This document shows, one piece after another, positions 6,001 through 20,523 of a stretch of 45,576 nucleotides of DNA. This DNA comes from Sedimentisphaerales bacterium (GTDB taxonomy: Bacteria; Planctomycetota; Phycisphaerae; Sedimentisphaerales; Anaerohalosphaeraceae). Within the stretch, counting starts at the first letter, position 1. Every line of letters starts with the position of its first letter. Location of the stretch: NCBI GenBank assembly GCA_016926155.1, contig JAFGPC010000123.1, forward strand, positions 1 through 45,576, read 5' to 3'. Made by a program: the position numbers and the translations under genes. The notes below the pieces were generated by a model. It had not been told where the DNA came from. It worked only from the letters and a program-made list of their open reading frames with translations, and ran no database searches.

Positions 6001-6363
6001 AGTTTTCTCCCTTCCGAAAAACATCAAAAGTCTTCCCAGGTCGACGGGTTTTTATCCGTCGTATGCCTCCATATATAACCTAGAAAACAACCGGCCAACC
6101 CGCAAATAGGAAGAAGTGATTTTATCGAACTTTCTGAAAATCAGAGCAGATTCTATTCCTGGTTATCATAATTGTCCATGATTCCGATAAGAAATGGCTT
6201 TACGATTGTATCTGGAGAATGTATGAATCAAATTGCTAAACTGAGAATGTGGGGATTCTGTTATTCCATTAAGTCCTATAGAAACCGGACAAAGTCAGAC
6301 GTTCTATAAGACACCCTTCTCTGGAAATCCTTTCAGGGGCGCAGGTTCAGGATACTTGCAGGA
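6001..6363. other. Non-coding gap between the small membrane gene and the Gfo/Idh gene
   Basis: This stretch has no convincing coding sequence on either strand. It should hold the promoter of the minus-strand gene ending at 5710 and the 3' end of the transcript from the Gfo/Idh gene. I saw no convincing terminator hairpin, tRNA or riboswitch in it. Confidence 0.5.
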
Positions 6364-14554: not shown

Positions 14555-14647
14555 TAGTGAGGGGGTGAAGGGGAGGGTGTTTAGCGAGAAGTTCGCTGAT
14601 ACTGCCCATAGCTGGAGGGCGAGAAACTGCTGTGGGCAGTTTTTTTA
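14555..14647 (+). ncRNA. Candidate small RNA or attenuated leader (about 90 nt)
   Basis: The segment between the promoter at 14520-14548 and the terminator at 14601-14647 has no convincing coding content. It starts with a G-rich purine run (14559-14579) and then a 5-bp hairpin (14583-14587 with 14593-14597) just before the terminator stem. The 16-base terminator loop contains GGAGGG. It could be a free small RNA or a leader whose terminator controls the downstream sigma factor gene. It does not match a riboswitch class that I recognise. Confidence 0.5.
14601..14647 (+). terminator. Strong rho-independent terminator/attenuator
   Basis: Arms 14601-14612 and 14629-14640 (ACTGCCCATAGC and GCTGTGGGCAGT) pair over 12 bases with one G-U pair. 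The loop is 16 bases and TTTTTTTATTTT follows at once. No plus-strand protein gene ends before it, so it must terminate a leader or small RNA. Confidence 0.85.
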
Positions 14648-14790
14648 TTTTGCGCTGTTTCCGGTTTTCTTTTATTATCGAATATTATCAATTCTACCTC
14701 GTTTTTCCGAGACTTTTTGCATATTTCATGATAACATATTGTTCTGCAGCGCGTCCCTGTTTCAGAATATGGCAACCGGGTGTGACGTAT

Positions 14791-15363
14791 ATGGCTGTAC
14801 GTACGGCAATTCAGGATTTGTTGTGGACAGGCTCGGTCATTTCATCGGTGGACCGCAGTCAAAGATGGATATTGTCTGCCATGCAAAAGCAGGGTCCCGG
14901 TCTAATTACAATGCTGTGGCGGATTCTTGGTAATGAACAGGATGTGTGTGATATATACCAGCAGACGTTTCTGAAACTGGCCCATTTTCGAGGGGATTCC
15001 AAGCCGGACAACATCTCCGCTTATCTGTATCGCACGGCTGCCAATGAAGCCATCACTTTAATGCGAAGGGCACAGGTTCATCGACGCAGTATAGAAAAAA
15101 TTGCTCCATCATCGTCGATCTCGGAACGTGTGGATTATGCATATGACCTGGACGCCAAAGCCCTGCAAACCAGGTTGCGGCAGGCTATTTCCCGATTGCC
15201 GGACTACCTGCGAGAAGTGGTAGCTCTCCGAGACCTTGCGGAATTATCATATTCTCAGGTTGGTCAGATCCTCGGAATCACACCTGCGACGGCACGGGTA
15301 TACCGCTGTAAAGCGATTGCATATTTATCGCGTCTGATGGGCGCGGCGGATGAAAGAGAGTAG
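14791..15363 (+). CDS. ECF-type RNA polymerase sigma factor
   Basis: A sigma-70 family factor of the extracytoplasmic-function type, about 190 residues. Region 2 spans LITMLWRILGNEQDVCDIYQ and QTFLKLAHFRG to AYLYRTAANEAI, with the DVxDIYQQTF signature that contacts the core polymerase and the -10 element. Region 4 runs from RLPDYLREVVALRDLAELSY through QVGQILGITPATARVY, a helix-turn-helix for the -35 element. The start is uncertain: the ATG at 14791 gives a normal length but has no clear ribosome binding site, and an ATG at 14881 begins close to region 2. The next gene encodes a likely zinc-type anti-sigma factor 6 bases on. The upstream terminator at 14601-14647 may regulate it. Confidence 0.9.
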   Translation: MAVRTAIQDLLWTGSVISSVDRSQRWILSAMQKQGPGLITMLWRILGNEQDVCDIYQQTFLKLAHFRGDSKPDNISAYLYRTAANEAITLMRRAQVHRRSIEKIAPSSSISERVDYAYDLDAKALQTRLRQAISRLPDYLREVVALRDLAELSYSQVGQILGITPATARVYRCKAIAYLSRLMGAADERE

Positions 15364-15369
15364 AGGTTT

Positions 15370-15867
15370 ATGAGAATACGTAGAGGGCCAATACGAGCGA
15401 TCAAGCGTTTTCAACGAAGGATCGGTGATTCTCTGGCGGCATGGATGGGTTTGGAATCCGGGTGGCTCGCCGAACATGTCGCTCATTGTCCCGTCTGTCA
15501 AAAACGCGCAGGACTACATCGGCAGGCCGAATTGGGTCTATCCTTAATTAAATCCCAGCCCCGGACAATCGATCTTGTAAAAAAAGCCAATGCCCAGGCA
15601 GTCTCCACGTTACAACGGTCGCTCCGACAGACCAAAAAGTCGGACCATCTCCGGCAAACTCGTCCAAAAACCTTCTGGTCGTATCCGAATGTACGCACCT
15701 TGCAACCGCTCCTGAGTACGGCTGCTTGTCTGATGGTCATTCTTCTGGTCAAGACCGGCGTGTTTGCATCGATGAATAAAGTGCGAGAAACGGGAACGAA
15801 TGTCGTACATTCGTACTATGCGCATCATCTGGGTCAGGAGATGGCTGACGATCTCTTCAAGGCATAG
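15370..15867 (+). CDS. Putative zinc-type anti-sigma factor
   Basis: A 165-residue protein directly after the sigma gene. EHVAHCPVC contains the His-x3-Cys-x2-Cys pattern of the ZAS anti-sigma domain, which binds the sigma factor in the cytoplasm and often senses redox or envelope stress. A single membrane helix, LLSTAACLMVILLVKTGVFA, lies near residues 114-135, leaving a short C-terminal part of about 30 residues outside the cytoplasm. The N-terminus is strongly basic. The gene order sigma then anti-sigma with a 6-base gap supports the assignment. The overall length and poor conservation outside the zinc motif are normal for the group. Confidence 0.75.
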   Translation: MRIRRGPIRAIKRFQRRIGDSLAAWMGLESGWLAEHVAHCPVCQKRAGLHRQAELGLSLIKSQPRTIDLVKKANAQAVSTLQRSLRQTKKSDHLRQTRPKTFWSYPNVRTLQPLLSTAACLMVILLVKTGVFASMNKVRETGTNVVHSYYAHHLGQEMADDLFKA

Positions 15868-15890
15868 ATTCGTTGTGAACGAAATCGTTG

Positions 15891-18041
15891 TTACCGCATT
15901 TGTTTTGCGACCATTACCAGATTCCGCAAGGAGGCTTCCGTCTCGGGCCAGTCTCGTGTCTTAAGTCCGCAGTCCGGGTTGATCCAGAAGTTGGTCTTGG
16001 GAATCACCTTGAGCGCCCGTTCAACAACTTCCTGCATTTCCTTGACATCCGGCACTGTCGGCGAGTGAATATCCCAGACACCCAGCCCGATTTGCCGCTG
16101 GAAATCGATTTTCTCAAAGCTTTCGAGGATGTCGCCGCGGCTGCGGGTGGTTTCAATGCTGATGACATCAAAATCCATAAGATTGATCTGCTCGATAATT
16201 TCTCCAAATTCGGAATAACAGATATGGGTATGAATCTGGGTTTTCGGGTCGGTGTTTGTCGTCAGGTTGAATGAGCGGATCGCCCAATCAAAATAAGCCG
16301 GCCAGGCTGTGCGTTTGAGAGGAGCTTTTTCGCGAATGGCAGGCTCATCGACTTGTACGATCTTGATATCGGCCTTTTCGTAATCCCTGATCTCGTCCTG
16401 TAAGGCCAGACCGATTTGATACGCGACATTAGCCAGTGGAATATCATTTCGAGCAAAGCTCCACGCAATAATAGTTACTGGTCCCGTGAGCATCCCTTTA
16501 ACCGGTTTACCGGTGAGCGTTTGTGCATAGGCGATTTCGCCGATCGTCATGGATTCCGGCCGGGAAACATCCCCATAAATAATGGGAGGGCGATATCCCC
16601 GGGTGCCGTAGGAAATAATCCAGCCATTTTTTGTTGTTGCAATGCCTTCCAGCTTCTCGGCAAAAAATTCGACCATGTCGGTCCGTTCAAACTCACCGTG
16701 CACCAGAACATCCAGCCCCAGGTTTTCCTGAAACGAAACCAGATCGGAAATTTTGTGGCGTATCCAGCCCTGGTATTCTTGTTTATCAATTTGCCCTTTT
16801 CGAAAAGCGGCTCTTTTCTTGCGTACTTCGGCCGTTTGTGGAAAGCTCCCAATCGTGGTTGTTGGAAGAATGGGCAAGCCAAGCATCTGGTCGTGCAGAT
16901 TACGACGTTCCTGAAGAGGGATCGATTTTATAAAGTCCGTATCCTTAAGTTTCGCGACTCGCGTTTGAACACTCGTATCAACTCCGAAGATACTTTTCTG
17001 TGGTGCAAGGGGAGCCTCGCCGCTCGTGAACAAATCGGCAAGGTGTTCGATCTCAGCAAGCTTTTCATTGGCAAAGGCCAAACGTTCCGTCAATTCAGCC
17101 GGTAGTGTTTCACCCTGAAGTGTGACGGGAACATGATAGAGTGGTCCGGCATTGGAAACCGCCAGAGAGGAGGTATACTGAGACAGTTCTTTCAGGATGG
17201 CCAGCGAAGAGGCCATGTCGTTTTTCCAAACATTCCTCCCATCAATAAGCCCGGCGATCAGGACTTTCCCTTTTGGGAATCCGCTCTTGCGGATCGTATC
17301 CAGGTTGGCCGGCCCATGGACAAAGTCCAATCCGATACCCGCAACAGGAAGCTCATACAGAACTTCAAGGAAATCAACCGCATCATAATAGGTAATCAGG
17401 TTCATTTTGGCGCCGGTTTCGCCCAGTGTTTCGTAGGTTCGATGGATGGCGGCAATTTCCGAATCGGTCAGTTCCAGCACAAAAGCAGGTTCTTCAATAT
17501 GAGCCGCAGGCAACTCGTTTAGAATTTCCCGGTAGACCGCTGTGAGGGATTGTAGGTATTTATCGAACTGTTCAGGTGTAATTCCTTTGCTCAGTTTGAG
17601 GAAGGTAAAAGGCCCGATCAAATAGGGTATTCCCCTGTTAAATTGTTCGTGATATTCCTTTGCACGGTTCTTTGTTACGGAAAAGGCAGGCCACTTCCGG
17701 TCGGAGAAATCCGGTACAAGGTAATGATAATTCGTGTTGAACCACTTGGTCATCTCCAGGGCGTTCTTGCCCCTGCACAAAGCATAATATTCAGACAGGT
17801 TGGCGGGTGTATAAGCCCCGACCATGACAGCCGTTTCAAACATCGGATCATAGGCCGTAATTTCCCCGACGGGAAAAAGATCAACCTTCGCCTCATAGAC
17901 AGCGATCATCTGTTCCTGCAGGCTGTCCAGTTGCTCGACTGTGGCGGATTCGGTAATGGCGCCCTTCCAGAACGCCTCGATGATTTTCTTGAATTCGCGA
18001 CCGGAGCCCAGACGAGGGTATCCGTAAGCATAGGTCTGCAT
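15891..18041 (-). CDS. metE: Cobalamin-independent methionine synthase
   Basis: A 716-residue enzyme that moves a methyl group from 5-methyltetrahydrofolate polyglutamate to homocysteine, the last step of methionine synthesis. Two barrel domains are seen. The N-terminal one starts YAYGYPRLGSGREFKK and contains EMTKWFNTNYHYLVP, a MetE hallmark. The C-terminal one contains TTTIGSFPQT, the zinc ligands in IHTHICYSEF (His-x-Cys) and a late Cys in WINPDCGLKTR. It is somewhat shorter than the 750-residue enterobacterial enzyme. AGGAC lies five bases before the ATG. The upstream gene, a fused XRE/cyclase-like regulator, ends 13 bases away and is probably on the same mRNA. No SAM or cobalamin riboswitch was seen upstream. 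Confidence 0.96.
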   Translation of the reverse strand: MQTYAYGYPRLGSGREFKKIIEAFWKGAITESATVEQLDSLQEQMIAVYEAKVDLFPVGEITAYDPMFETAVMVGAYTPANLSEYYALCRGKNALEMTKWFNTNYHYLVPDFSDRKWPAFSVTKNRAKEYHEQFNRGIPYLIGPFTFLKLSKGITPEQFDKYLQSLTAVYREILNELPAAHIEEPAFVLELTDSEIAAIHRTYETLGETGAKMNLITYYDAVDFLEVLYELPVAGIGLDFVHGPANLDTIRKSGFPKGKVLIAGLIDGRNVWKNDMASSLAILKELSQYTSSLAVSNAGPLYHVPVTLQGETLPAELTERLAFANEKLAEIEHLADLFTSGEAPLAPQKSIFGVDTSVQTRVAKLKDTDFIKSIPLQERRNLHDQMLGLPILPTTTIGSFPQTAEVRKKRAAFRKGQIDKQEYQGWIRHKISDLVSFQENLGLDVLVHGEFERTDMVEFFAEKLEGIATTKNGWIISYGTRGYRPPIIYGDVSRPESMTIGEIAYAQTLTGKPVKGMLTGPVTIIAWSFARNDIPLANVAYQIGLALQDEIRDYEKADIKIVQVDEPAIREKAPLKRTAWPAYFDWAIRSFNLTTNTDPKTQIHTHICYSEFGEIIEQINLMDFDVISIETTRSRGDILESFEKIDFQRQIGLGVWDIHSPTVPDVKEMQEVVERALKVIPKTNFWINPDCGLKTRDWPETEASLRNLVMVAKQMR

Positions 18042-18054
18042 GAATAGTCCTTTC

Positions 18055-18783
18055 TCAGGATTTCAGTTTCGGTTCAAACACAGTAATGTCTGTATCAATT
18101 GCATCAATACGTACACCGGTATGCCGGGTAAATACGACGGCTTTATCTATTCGGTTCGCTGCCATTTCCGTCAGGCCGATCCCGACAGAACAATGCTGGG
18201 CGACATAATCCATGATCAGGAACGCCAGATTGACCGCCTGACCGCAGATATCTTTAGAACAGTAATCCGGGTGCCCGATGGTTCCAAGATAGATATCACC
18301 GGAATTGAGCGTAATGATCAAGGAAGGATTCTGGATGACCTGCTTGGCGTAGACGGCGGCCTTAAGTGCCCGATTAGCGTGATCTCCGCCGGAGAAAAAG
18401 CACAAAAATCCATCCCCGACATATTTAACAGGAACGGCATCATACCGCAGGGCCGCCTCGGTCAGATGATGGAAGATTACATTGGCCCATTCGGCCAGCT
18501 CTTTCGATTCCATTGAGATGGACTTACGAGCGAACTGATTCAGGCTGGAGCAAAAAACCGTAGCTTCAAACTGCCCCTGTTGCTGCTCGGTAACACCCAG
18601 CAGATAATCAGTTGTAACGCCCAGAATCCTGGCCAATTCTGGAAGTGTGATGATGTCGGGGCAGGTTTCGCACCGTTCCCATTTGGAGACTGCCTGTGGA
18701 CTGACTGTCAGGGCATTGGCTAGGTCAACCTGTTTGAGGCCCCGTCGGATTCGTAACTCGCGTATCCGTTTTCCAATCTCCAT
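18055..18783 (-). CDS. XRE helix-turn-helix regulator fused to a class III nucleotide cyclase-like domain
   Basis: A 242-residue two-domain protein. Residues 1-63 are an XRE/HTH_3 DNA-binding domain (IRELRIRRGLKQVDLANAL, then VSPQAVSKWERCE). Residues about 70-240 look like the class III adenylate/guanylate cyclase homology domain: VKYVGDGFLCFFSG matches the K-x2-GD-x metal-binding hairpin, and DICGQAVNLAFLI matches the late G-x2-VN-x-A helix. The first metal Asp of active cyclases is not obvious (VFCSSLNQFAR where F-x-D-I would be expected) and the usual Arg after VNxA is missing. The domain may therefore bind a nucleotide without cyclising it. The ATG at 18783 has AGGAG seven bases upstream. 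The gene precedes metE, which it may regulate. Confidence 0.82.
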   Translation of the reverse strand: MEIGKRIRELRIRRGLKQVDLANALTVSPQAVSKWERCETCPDIITLPELARILGVTTDYLLGVTEQQQGQFEATVFCSSLNQFARKSISMESKELAEWANVIFHHLTEAALRYDAVPVKYVGDGFLCFFSGGDHANRALKAAVYAKQVIQNPSLIITLNSGDIYLGTIGHPDYCSKDICGQAVNLAFLIMDYVAQHCSVGIGLTEMAANRIDKAVVFTRHTGVRIDAIDTDITVFEPKLKS

Positions 18784-18800
18784 TCGTTCACTCCTGCGAT

Positions 18801-18849
18801 AAATCAAACCCGATCCGGCCCGCTAAATCAAGAAACTCCTGCTTGATTT
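18801..18849. repeat. AAATCAA motif repeated three times, two forming an inverted repeat
   Basis: AAATCAA occurs at 18801-18807 and 18825-18831, and its complement TTGATTT at 18843-18849. The last two extend to a perfect 8-bp inverted repeat (18825-18832 and 18842-18849) with a 9-base centre. They lie between the promoter and the start of the XRE/cyclase-like gene and could be an operator or an mRNA hairpin. Confidence 0.6.
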
Positions 18850-18879
18850 CGACAACTTTCCGTTCCATTCCAACAATAG

Positions 18880-18888
18880 ATTATATCA
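18880..18888 (-). promoter_or_regulatory. Extended -10 promoter of the XRE/cyclase-metE unit
   Basis: On the minus strand TATAAT (18880-18885) is preceded by TG one base upstream, which forms an extended -10 element. No good -35 hexamer is seen. A start near 18873 would give a leader of about 90 bases containing the AAATCAA repeats. Confidence 0.45.
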
Positions 18889-18918
18889 TTGATAACTCAA
18901 ATTTAATGCTTTATAGGA

Positions 18919-18946
18919 TTGTCTGGCAGGATTATAATTATATACT
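18919..18946 (+). promoter_or_regulatory. Possible promoter of the lipoprotein gene
   Basis: TTGTCT (18919-18924) and TATACT (18941-18946) are 16 bases apart in an AT-rich stretch, about 65 bases before the ATG at 19013. Confidence 0.4.
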
Positions 18947-19012
18947 CAATTTATTCTATAAGGTAAGTGAATCCGTTTTTTATGAAATGGGGTTTAGGAC
19001 AGGAGGTAAAAA

Positions 19013-19339
19013 ATGATTTGGTGGATGAGGTGTTTTTCGGTAATCGTTCTGATTCTTTTCGCAGGTTGTAAATTTGAAATGTCGCAGGAATCCATATCCC
19101 AGATAGAGCAAGGCAAGGAGACAGTCTCACTTGGTTCAGTGCGTATGCGTAATCATATCATTCGACTGGAGCATGGTGAGATGTTCTCTGTTTTAACCTC
19201 GGATGGCCAGGTGTTGGCGTATCGGCTCAAAACAGACGAATTCCAACAAAAGTTTCCCGAATTGTATGATGAAATCAACTCTGCTGTTGCCGATATGATT
19301 TTTGCTAATCCCTGTCTGTTTGATGCTGGATTGCATTAG
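19013..19339 (+). CDS. Small putative lipoprotein
   Basis: A 108-residue protein with a short hydrophobic signal and a lipobox, LFAGC, with the acylated Cys at residue 19. This predicts a membrane-bound lipoprotein. AGGAGG lies six bases before the ATG, an excellent start. The mature part (LGSVRMRNHIIRLEHGEMFS, LTSDGQVLAYRLK) looks like a small mixed alpha/beta domain that I do not recognise. It is divergent from the XRE/cyclase regulator and about 80 bases ahead of the aldo/keto reductase on the same strand. No function can be assigned. Confidence 0.75.
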   Translation: MIWWMRCFSVIVLILFAGCKFEMSQESISQIEQGKETVSLGSVRMRNHIIRLEHGEMFSVLTSDGQVLAYRLKTDEFQQKFPELYDEINSAVADMIFANPCLFDAGLH

Positions 19340-19419
19340 TTGATATTACGAGTGTCAAAACCTATAATAATCTCTGATTGTGTTGGACAGTTGTAATCTT
19401 TAAATGGAAGGGACATCGG

Positions 19420-20334
19420 ATGGGGCGATATGATATTTCACGACGGCGGTTTTTAGAGGGTGCCGCGGCAGCAGCAGGTCTGGCTGTAGTGTCCTCTACC
19501 GGAATTCAGGCCGCTGAGCAAAAGAAAAAAAGGACCGCTGTCGATCAGGTCAAGCTGGGTAAAACAGGCATCAAACTGAGCCGATTGGGCATTGGTGTTG
19601 GTAGTAATGGCGGCAATGTCCAGCGAGCACTGGGCCATGAAGGCTTTAATAAGCTTATACGCTATGCGTACGATCAGGGGATTACGTATATCGATACGGC
19701 CGACTCCTATAAAACTCATACCTGGGTCCGCGAAGCGATCAAAGGCCTGCCACGAGAAAAGTTATTTATTCAGAGTAAAATGGGGGGCAATCCGGAAAAG
19801 CCGCTGGAGATTCTGGATCGTTTCCGGCAGGAGCTGGGCATGGATTATATCGATTGTGTCCTGAGCCATTGTACGGTTACCCCGGGCTGGGATGAGCAGC
19901 GCAAACGTGTGCTCGATGCATTGGAAGAAGCCAAGGCTAAAAAAATCATCCGGGCTCATGGTGTCTCCTGCCACAGTCTACCGGCACTGAAGCGATCTGC
20001 TGAAATTGATTGGGTTGATGTGCATCTGGTCCGGGTCAATCCGCAGGGGGTCCACATGGACACACCGCAGGAAACCTGGAACGCCAAAAGCGATAAGTCC
20101 CATGTGCCCGCAGTGATGGAACAGCTCAAAATCATGCGGGATAAGAAACGGGGCGTCATCGGCATGAAAATTATCGGAGAGGGAGATTTCACTAATCCTG
20201 ACGATCGCGAAAAATCCATTCGATTTGCGATGGGGTGCCGCCCGCTCAATGCCGTGGTCATCGGCTTTAAAAGCCCCGGCGAGATCGATGAAGCCATACT
20301 GCGAATGAATAATGCGTTAGCCGAATTGTCGTGA
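19420..20334 (+). CDS. Tat-exported aldo/keto reductase
   Basis: A 304-residue aldo/keto reductase, a TIM-barrel NADPH-dependent oxidoreductase of carbonyl compounds. The N-terminus carries a twin-arginine signal (SRRRFLEGAAAAAGLAVVSS) predicting export or membrane anchoring with bound cofactor. The barrel begins VKLGKTGIKLSRLGIGVGS. The family tetrad can be traced as Asp and Tyr in YIDTADSYKTH, Lys in LFIQSKMG and His in VLSHCTV. The ATG at 19420 has GGAAGGGA upstream. A terminator follows 20 bases after the stop. The substrate is unknown. Exported members of this family are common in planctomycetes and related groups. Confidence 0.92.
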   Translation: MGRYDISRRRFLEGAAAAAGLAVVSSTGIQAAEQKKKRTAVDQVKLGKTGIKLSRLGIGVGSNGGNVQRALGHEGFNKLIRYAYDQGITYIDTADSYKTHTWVREAIKGLPREKLFIQSKMGGNPEKPLEILDRFRQELGMDYIDCVLSHCTVTPGWDEQRKRVLDALEEAKAKKIIRAHGVSCHSLPALKRSAEIDWVDVHLVRVNPQGVHMDTPQETWNAKSDKSHVPAVMEQLKIMRDKKRGVIGMKIIGEGDFTNPDDREKSIRFAMGCRPLNAVVIGFKSPGEIDEAILRMNNALAELS

Positions 20335-20352
20335 CACAACCGATAGAACAAA

Positions 20353-20402
20353 AAAGACAGTCCTCAAATCTGAATCAGTTCGGATTGGGGCTGTCTTTAT
20401 TT
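20353..20402 (+). terminator. Rho-independent terminator, possibly bidirectional
   Basis: Outer arms AAAGACAG (20353-20360) and CTGTCTTT (20391-20398) enclose further pairing between AAATC and GATT segments. The hairpin is followed by ATTTA on the plus strand and by a T run on the minus strand. It ends the aldo/keto reductase transcript. Confidence 0.75.
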
Positions 20403-20523
20403 AAGATCGACACCTCAAAGGCTCCTTCCAGCAAATTCCGACAAACGAAAATCCTCGTATTTACTTCGGTTTTCGGTTTTAAGATCCTCGATATCAAGTT
20501 GTGACTTTCCAGATGAGAAGGTC

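Follow-up and report, generated by a model that had tools for sequence, protein, structure and literature searches.

The window analysed here, i.e. the whole stretch of 45,576 nucleotides, encodes a protein in which an HTH_3/XRE-type DNA-binding domain is followed by a class III cyclase homology domain (CHD) that has lost residues needed for catalysis and retained the residue pair that selects adenine. We propose that the SAM/SAH (activated methyl) cycle is probably controlled by this protein as a one-component regulator, in which the pseudo-cyclase would serve as a sensor for an adenine-containing metabolite, SAH being the most likely one. The features of the locus are compiled in Table 1.

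Table 1. Features of the regulator locus, with positions in the window
Feature	Position	Strand	Remarks
XRE-CHD regulator gene, 242 aa	18055..18783	minus	ATG at 18783, stop 18057-18055
HTH_3 / XRE DNA-binding domain, residues 1-63	18595..18783	minus	Pfam match and homolog alignment
Class III cyclase homology domain (CHD), residues 67-242	18058..18585	minus	profile, structural alignment, residue counts
metE, cobalamin-independent methionine synthase	15891..18041	minus	NF003556, 883 bits
Candidate operator, perfect 8-bp inverted repeat AAATCAAG-N9-CTTGATTT	18825..18849	.	CAA-N11-TTG geometry; unique in the window
Candidate promoter, TTGATT (18831-18826), 17 nt, TTTGAT (18808-18803)	18803..18831	minus	overlaps the right operator arm
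Possible second operator element GAACGGAAAGTTG	18853..18865	minus	weak, found by eye; cf. CAAC-N5-GTTG in the upstream regions of homologs L050 and L129

Domain organisation and active-site residues

A preliminary description of this DNA had assigned an HTH_3 domain to the N-terminus and class III cyclase homology to the C-terminal part, and both assignments hold. PF01381 (HTH_3) matches residues 7-61 with an E value of 1.9e-13 (50.7 bits vs a Pfam cut-off of 23), and the QAVSKWER recognition region shows no variation across the 15 homologs in the alignment. When PF00211 is compared with the single window sequence, the match (residues 72-188, E=0.0069) remains below the cut-off with 16.4 vs 21.9 bits. 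Searching the PDB with a profile built from the 15 homologs retrieves class III cyclases of solved structure (2w01 with E=2.7e-13, profile positions 76-240), and 14 of the 15 family members match PF00211 themselves (best E 1.7e-7). The AF2 model of the regulator (mean pLDDT 89.9) can be aligned with OaPAC, CyaB, RhGC and others over approximately 170 residues, with Z scores of 20-23 and an rmsd of about 2 Å. Because the homolog profile, the PF00211 matches and the alignments of the predicted model agree, the identification of the C-terminal part as a CHD is beyond reasonable doubt; the profile search that had been put forward as a check on this point places it in the cyclase superfamily.

Active-site residues were counted in the 15 sequences of alignment A1 (the window protein and 14 relatives), with positions mapped via the alignments. 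The first metal-binding Asp (position 80) is lost in 13/15 sequences (S7 A2 G2 D2 T1 E1), the two homologs that still have it being those of G225 and G114, and the second (position 124) is largely conserved (D13 P2). At the transition-state positions, the Asn is found in most sequences (position 185; N13 S2) and the Arg in none of the 15 (position 189; L12 M2 I1). Both adenine-selecting residues, the Lys at position 120 and the Asp at position 178, are present in 15/15. Measured against what an active enzyme would have, the window protein thus possesses the complete adenine-selecting pair (K120, D178) and one member each of the metal-binding pair (D124, with S80 in place of the first Asp) and of the transition-state pair (N185, with L189 in place of the Arg). 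The preliminary description had read the missing first metal Asp, the kept GD hairpin and the missing late Arg correctly; the conservation of both the Lys and the Asp that select adenine, an informative point, had received no stress. A Lys and an Asp in these positions make class III cyclases specific for ATP (PMC4215837).

Judged by its residues, the CHD looks catalytically dead. Since K120 and D178 are retained in all 15 sequences, while the Arg is absent from all and the first Asp is lost in 13, the conservation pattern indicates that selection has retained the reading of adenine and dropped the chemistry. It is this residue conservation that suggests nucleotide binding by the CHD, as had been supposed earlier. 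Both purA-linked relatives have lost D124 and N185 too, which may reflect a changed ligand.

The gap between the regulator gene and metE amounts to 13 bp (18042-18054), as noted before, and the two genes presumably form one operon. The reported absence of a riboswitch was likewise confirmed for the window, in which an Rfam scan of positions 15000-20500 returned no riboswitch and a single chance match far below its gathering score. Convergent with metE lies a gene for an ECF-type sigma factor (14632-15363, plus strand), followed by a gene for a small putative membrane protein, possibly an anti-sigma factor (15370-15867, plus strand).

Genes downstream of the homologs

The 14 full-length relatives are 42-64% identical and come from genomes of the same phylum, which their gene content suggests is Planctomycetota. 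When the downstream neighbour is taken as the next gene on the same strand as the regulator, metE is found at two loci (the window and L129/L162, the latter with 1153 bits), metH at two (L054, TIGR02082 with 1156 bits, and L051, with an interrupted frame), ahcY at two (L048 and L050, 623 and 634 bits) and purA at two (L055 and L056). Further neighbours are ispG (L049 in G086) and a gene for a DHH/DHHA1 (DHH-family) phosphoesterase (L045/L046 in G050/G054). Altogether, 8/16 homologs have neither a methyl-cycle nor a purine gene directly downstream (G009, G018, G075, G164, G175 (ambiguous), G086, G050 and G054), and this counts against the reading that we prefer. The metH gene of G225 (L051:4084-7615) is divided between two reading frames that join near 6060, which points to a frameshift or an assembly error.

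In the tree, the two metH-linked homologs form a supported clade, as do the two purA-linked ones; the ahcY holders are located on separate branches, and both metE holders belong to a single supported set of six. The same step is catalysed by MetE and MetH, which are unrelated, non-homologous enzymes; the gene link therefore tracks pathway and function and not one inherited pair. Assuming about 5 methyl-cycle genes among about 4000, and independence, the chance of finding at least 4 methyl-cycle neighbours in approximately 11 lineages is roughly estimated to be of the order of 1e-9. The link of the homologs to methionine-cycle genes, on which the preliminary description had made its idea depend, is thus present. 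Its 'regulator of methionine synthesis' is supported by these neighbours, while the term itself proved too narrow and should be widened to the SAM/SAH cycle together with a branch, at purA, to adenine-nucleotide synthesis.

Distribution and carriage by a phage

The family is distributed patchily, with homologs in 5/161 genomes of the order, 9/392 sampled in the phylum and 6/397 in the class, in samples that overlap and with systematic sampling confined to the window's phylum. Plasmid and phage reference collections contained no match. A search with the single protein by short peptide patterns, which missed true homologs, gave only XRE-domain matches, in Clostridia. One homolog and its metE (L129/L162) reside on a 41.7-kb IMG/VR contig, with tail genes and ribonucleotide reductase to one side of the pair and a large serine integrase to the other. 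This regulator-metE pair appears to be carried by a temperate phage or prophage, and phage carriage may explain the patchy spread.

In the temperate-phage-like segment L162 (positions 1-20735 of the contig), nrdB, nrdA, the XRE-CHD regulator and metE are arranged between tail-collar genes and the integrase, so that a methionine synthase is found as phage cargo that brings its own regulator. PHROG 25791, listed as of unknown function, matches the MetE encoded at L162:10739-13087 over its full length (704 bits), and judging from this match the phage family is evidently MetE.

Upstream motif and candidate operator

The motif CAAC-N17-CAAC-N9-ATTG is found upstream of six homologs belonging to three clades, all six being ahcY-, metH- or purA-linked, approximately 75-103 bases before the start codon. 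It often reads GGATTCAAC...CCATTG, and its right end coincides with a -35-like TTG. An exact scan of 15 genomes, for which the reversed pattern gave a mean of less than one match per genome, revealed an additional site in G225, about 90 bp before its ahcY; the regulator gene of this genome, together with metH, is located about 2.6 kb from this motif-bearing ahcY. A near-identical copy precedes a small cupin gene in G133 (L094:4164-4526). A -10-like hexamer with at least 4/6 matches follows the TTG after 17-18 nt in the window (4/6, 17 nt) and in 5/6 of the motif-bearing homologs; the sixth, L050, has 3/6. The inner geometry of the motif, CAA-N11-TTG, occurs in 8/14 upstream regions vs 0.46 expected (0/2000 shuffles), six of these eight being the regions from which the pattern was derived; in the remaining eight loci it occurs twice vs 0.27 expected (P 0.024).

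The inverted repeat ahead of the window's regulator gene agrees in this geometry with the motif found in the other clades; in sequence, the agreement is incomplete. The matrix of the CAAC motif, the scores of which are ordinal only as one G225 site was entered twice, yields no score for the window, L043, L044, L046, L047, L049, L052 or L053. We regard the repeat, from its geometry and symmetry, as a good candidate for the operator of the regulator, and as a candidate because a palindrome with 8-bp arms alone arises in approximately 5% of shuffles. The candidate promoter of the window is weak; with 8/12 matches it lies under the scanner threshold of 9/12 and was hence not reported by the scanner.

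Proposed mechanism and alternative explanations

Class III domains act as dimers, and so do XRE proteins in binding palindromes. We propose the following hypothetical mechanism, in which (i) the XRE domain, as a dimer, would bind the candidate operator shortly before the regulator gene, a site overlapping the -35 region of the putative regulator-metE promoter; (ii) the CHD, making no cyclic nucleotide, would hold the dimer together; (iii) the kept pocket with K120 and D178 would bind an adenine-containing metabolite, most likely SAH, with SAM or adenosine next; (iv) the ligand would alter the dimer and thereby change how tightly the XRE heads bind DNA, so that methionine synthase (metE in the window; in relatives, metH or ahcY) would be matched to the load of the methyl cycle. 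With its two adenine pockets, a CHD dimer would be a natural clamp and could bring two XRE heads into a new position. As the candidate site overlaps the -35 element, we slightly prefer repression that is relieved by the ligand over other signs of regulation. The arrangement suggests repression at the regulator's own promoter, which the ligand could relieve or strengthen, and activation from the same site, as with lambda cI, may be an alternative. SAH is preferred as the ligand because SahR, discussed below, controls ahcY, metH and metE and because ahcY is a core target of SAH riboswitches (PMC4239095). The purA link would fit adenosine or AMP as alternative ligands.

We consider it unlikely that the same regulator responds to a general adenine nucleotide (ATP or AMP) or to cAMP and reports the energy or second-messenger state of the cell. 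Such a ligand would be consistent with the adenine pair and the second metal Asp, retained in the manner of ATP-using class III cyclases, and with purA, the product of which serves AMP synthesis, downstream of two homologs; however, the handling of triphosphate and metal is probably impaired, since the first metal Asp is missing along with the Arg, and metE, metH and ahcY have the SAM/SAH cycle in common, not general energy sensing. The same residues bear on an active or half-active cyclase that makes cAMP alone or with another CHD subunit and is tethered to DNA by the XRE domain. Although D124, N185 and both adenine-selecting residues are still present, and the G225 and G114 homologs retain the first Asp as well, the absence of the transition-state Arg from all 15 sequences and the loss of the first metal Asp in most sequences make this highly improbable, and on these residues we reject it. 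A partner was not found either, as the window's genome (G000) gave no PF00211 match at E 1e-3 in a search that is blind to divergent domains, the window's CHD included.

It is also quite improbable that the neighbours are incidental and the protein is a stray repressor derived from a phage or another element that controls itself only. XRE domains do resemble phage repressors, and the patchy distribution and the homolog on the contig with tail and integrase genes would agree with such an origin, but metE, metH and ahcY, which belong to one pathway, are repeatedly the next downstream gene in separate lineages, and the common motif is also present at a second gene, the ahcY of G225. To our knowledge, known phage repressors have no conserved adenine pocket of this kind. 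Regulation of the SAM/SAH cycle through a pseudo-cyclase remains the reading that we favour.

Comparison with known systems

SahR, an SAH-responsive regulator of the ArsR family, governs the SAM cycle in Proteobacteria and controls sahR, ahcY, metH, metF, metK and sometimes metE, which provides a precedent for a regulon of this type (PMC4239095). The XRE-CHD regulator is comparable in that its own gene, ahcY, metH and metE are linked or predicted targets, in its palindromic (here candidate) operator and in its one-component DNA-binding design. In contrast to SahR, its DNA-binding part matches the XRE/HTH_3 type, with no ArsR-type winged helix among the Pfam and NCBIfam matches, and its ligand domain has a class III cyclase fold; the effector is established for SahR and predicted here. 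By analogy, the regulator may work like SahR without being a member of its family.

With class III cyclases (PF00211; CyaB 3r5g, Cya2 2w01, OaPAC 8qfi), the protein shares the fold, the Lys/Asp pair of adenylyl cyclases, the second metal Asp and the Asn. It differs from them by the lost Arg and, in most members, the lost first metal Asp, and by the fusion of the CHD behind a DNA-binding domain. Mycobacterial CHD-LuxR proteins such as Rv0386, for which cyclase activity was reported, also combine a cyclase homology domain with a helix-turn-helix domain (PMC3466318). However, their helix-turn-helix is of the LuxR type, the order of the domains is different and extra domains are present. We know of no link of CHD-LuxR proteins to methionine. 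XRE/Cro-C1 repressors (434, P22 C2, the ICEBs1 regulator 7t8i) have the HTH_3 domain and a matching recognition region in common with the regulator, whereas their C-terminal part lacks a cyclase fold. The pairing of HTH_3 (PF01381) with a cyclase domain is mentioned among Pfam architectures (PMC4886424), so that the fusion as such is probably not new; the part of that source concerned with these architectures, which contain the same two domains, leaves function, regulon and sensing by a pseudo-cyclase undescribed.

Our search of the open-access literature yielded no description of a protein that regulates the SAM cycle in this group of bacteria, and going by the literature searched, the combination of a methyl-cycle role with a pseudo-cyclase sensor is, as far as shown, new. 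A cyclase fold that senses SAM, SAH or adenosine is not known to us. We are slightly more doubtful than confident about the broader hypothesis that the pseudo-cyclase is a non-catalytic sensor of S-adenosyl compounds driving a DNA-binding head, and that it would define a new family of SAM-cycle regulators, patchily transferred within one phylum and present in a temperate phage with its own metE. If true, a signalling enzyme fold would have been put to new use in sensing a metabolite, a case relevant to the question of how pseudoenzymes turn into receptors, and a regulator, its operator and a short list of ligands would be at hand for testing.

Observations on metK

As a possible further target of the motif, metK was checked in upstream regions from the 15 regulator genomes and 15 controls. 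The pattern was present only in G050/G054, with a low matrix score; this link may be due to chance, and we make no claim for metK as a target. The window's genome possesses two metK copies; L104 (G000:C64) shares 71% and L127 (G000:C177) 55% identity with the query from G054. Many members of the order (L099-L107) carry, ahead of metK, a gene ending in a conserved D-W-x-L-N-E-like peptide, which represents a conserved uncharacterised neighbour of metK.
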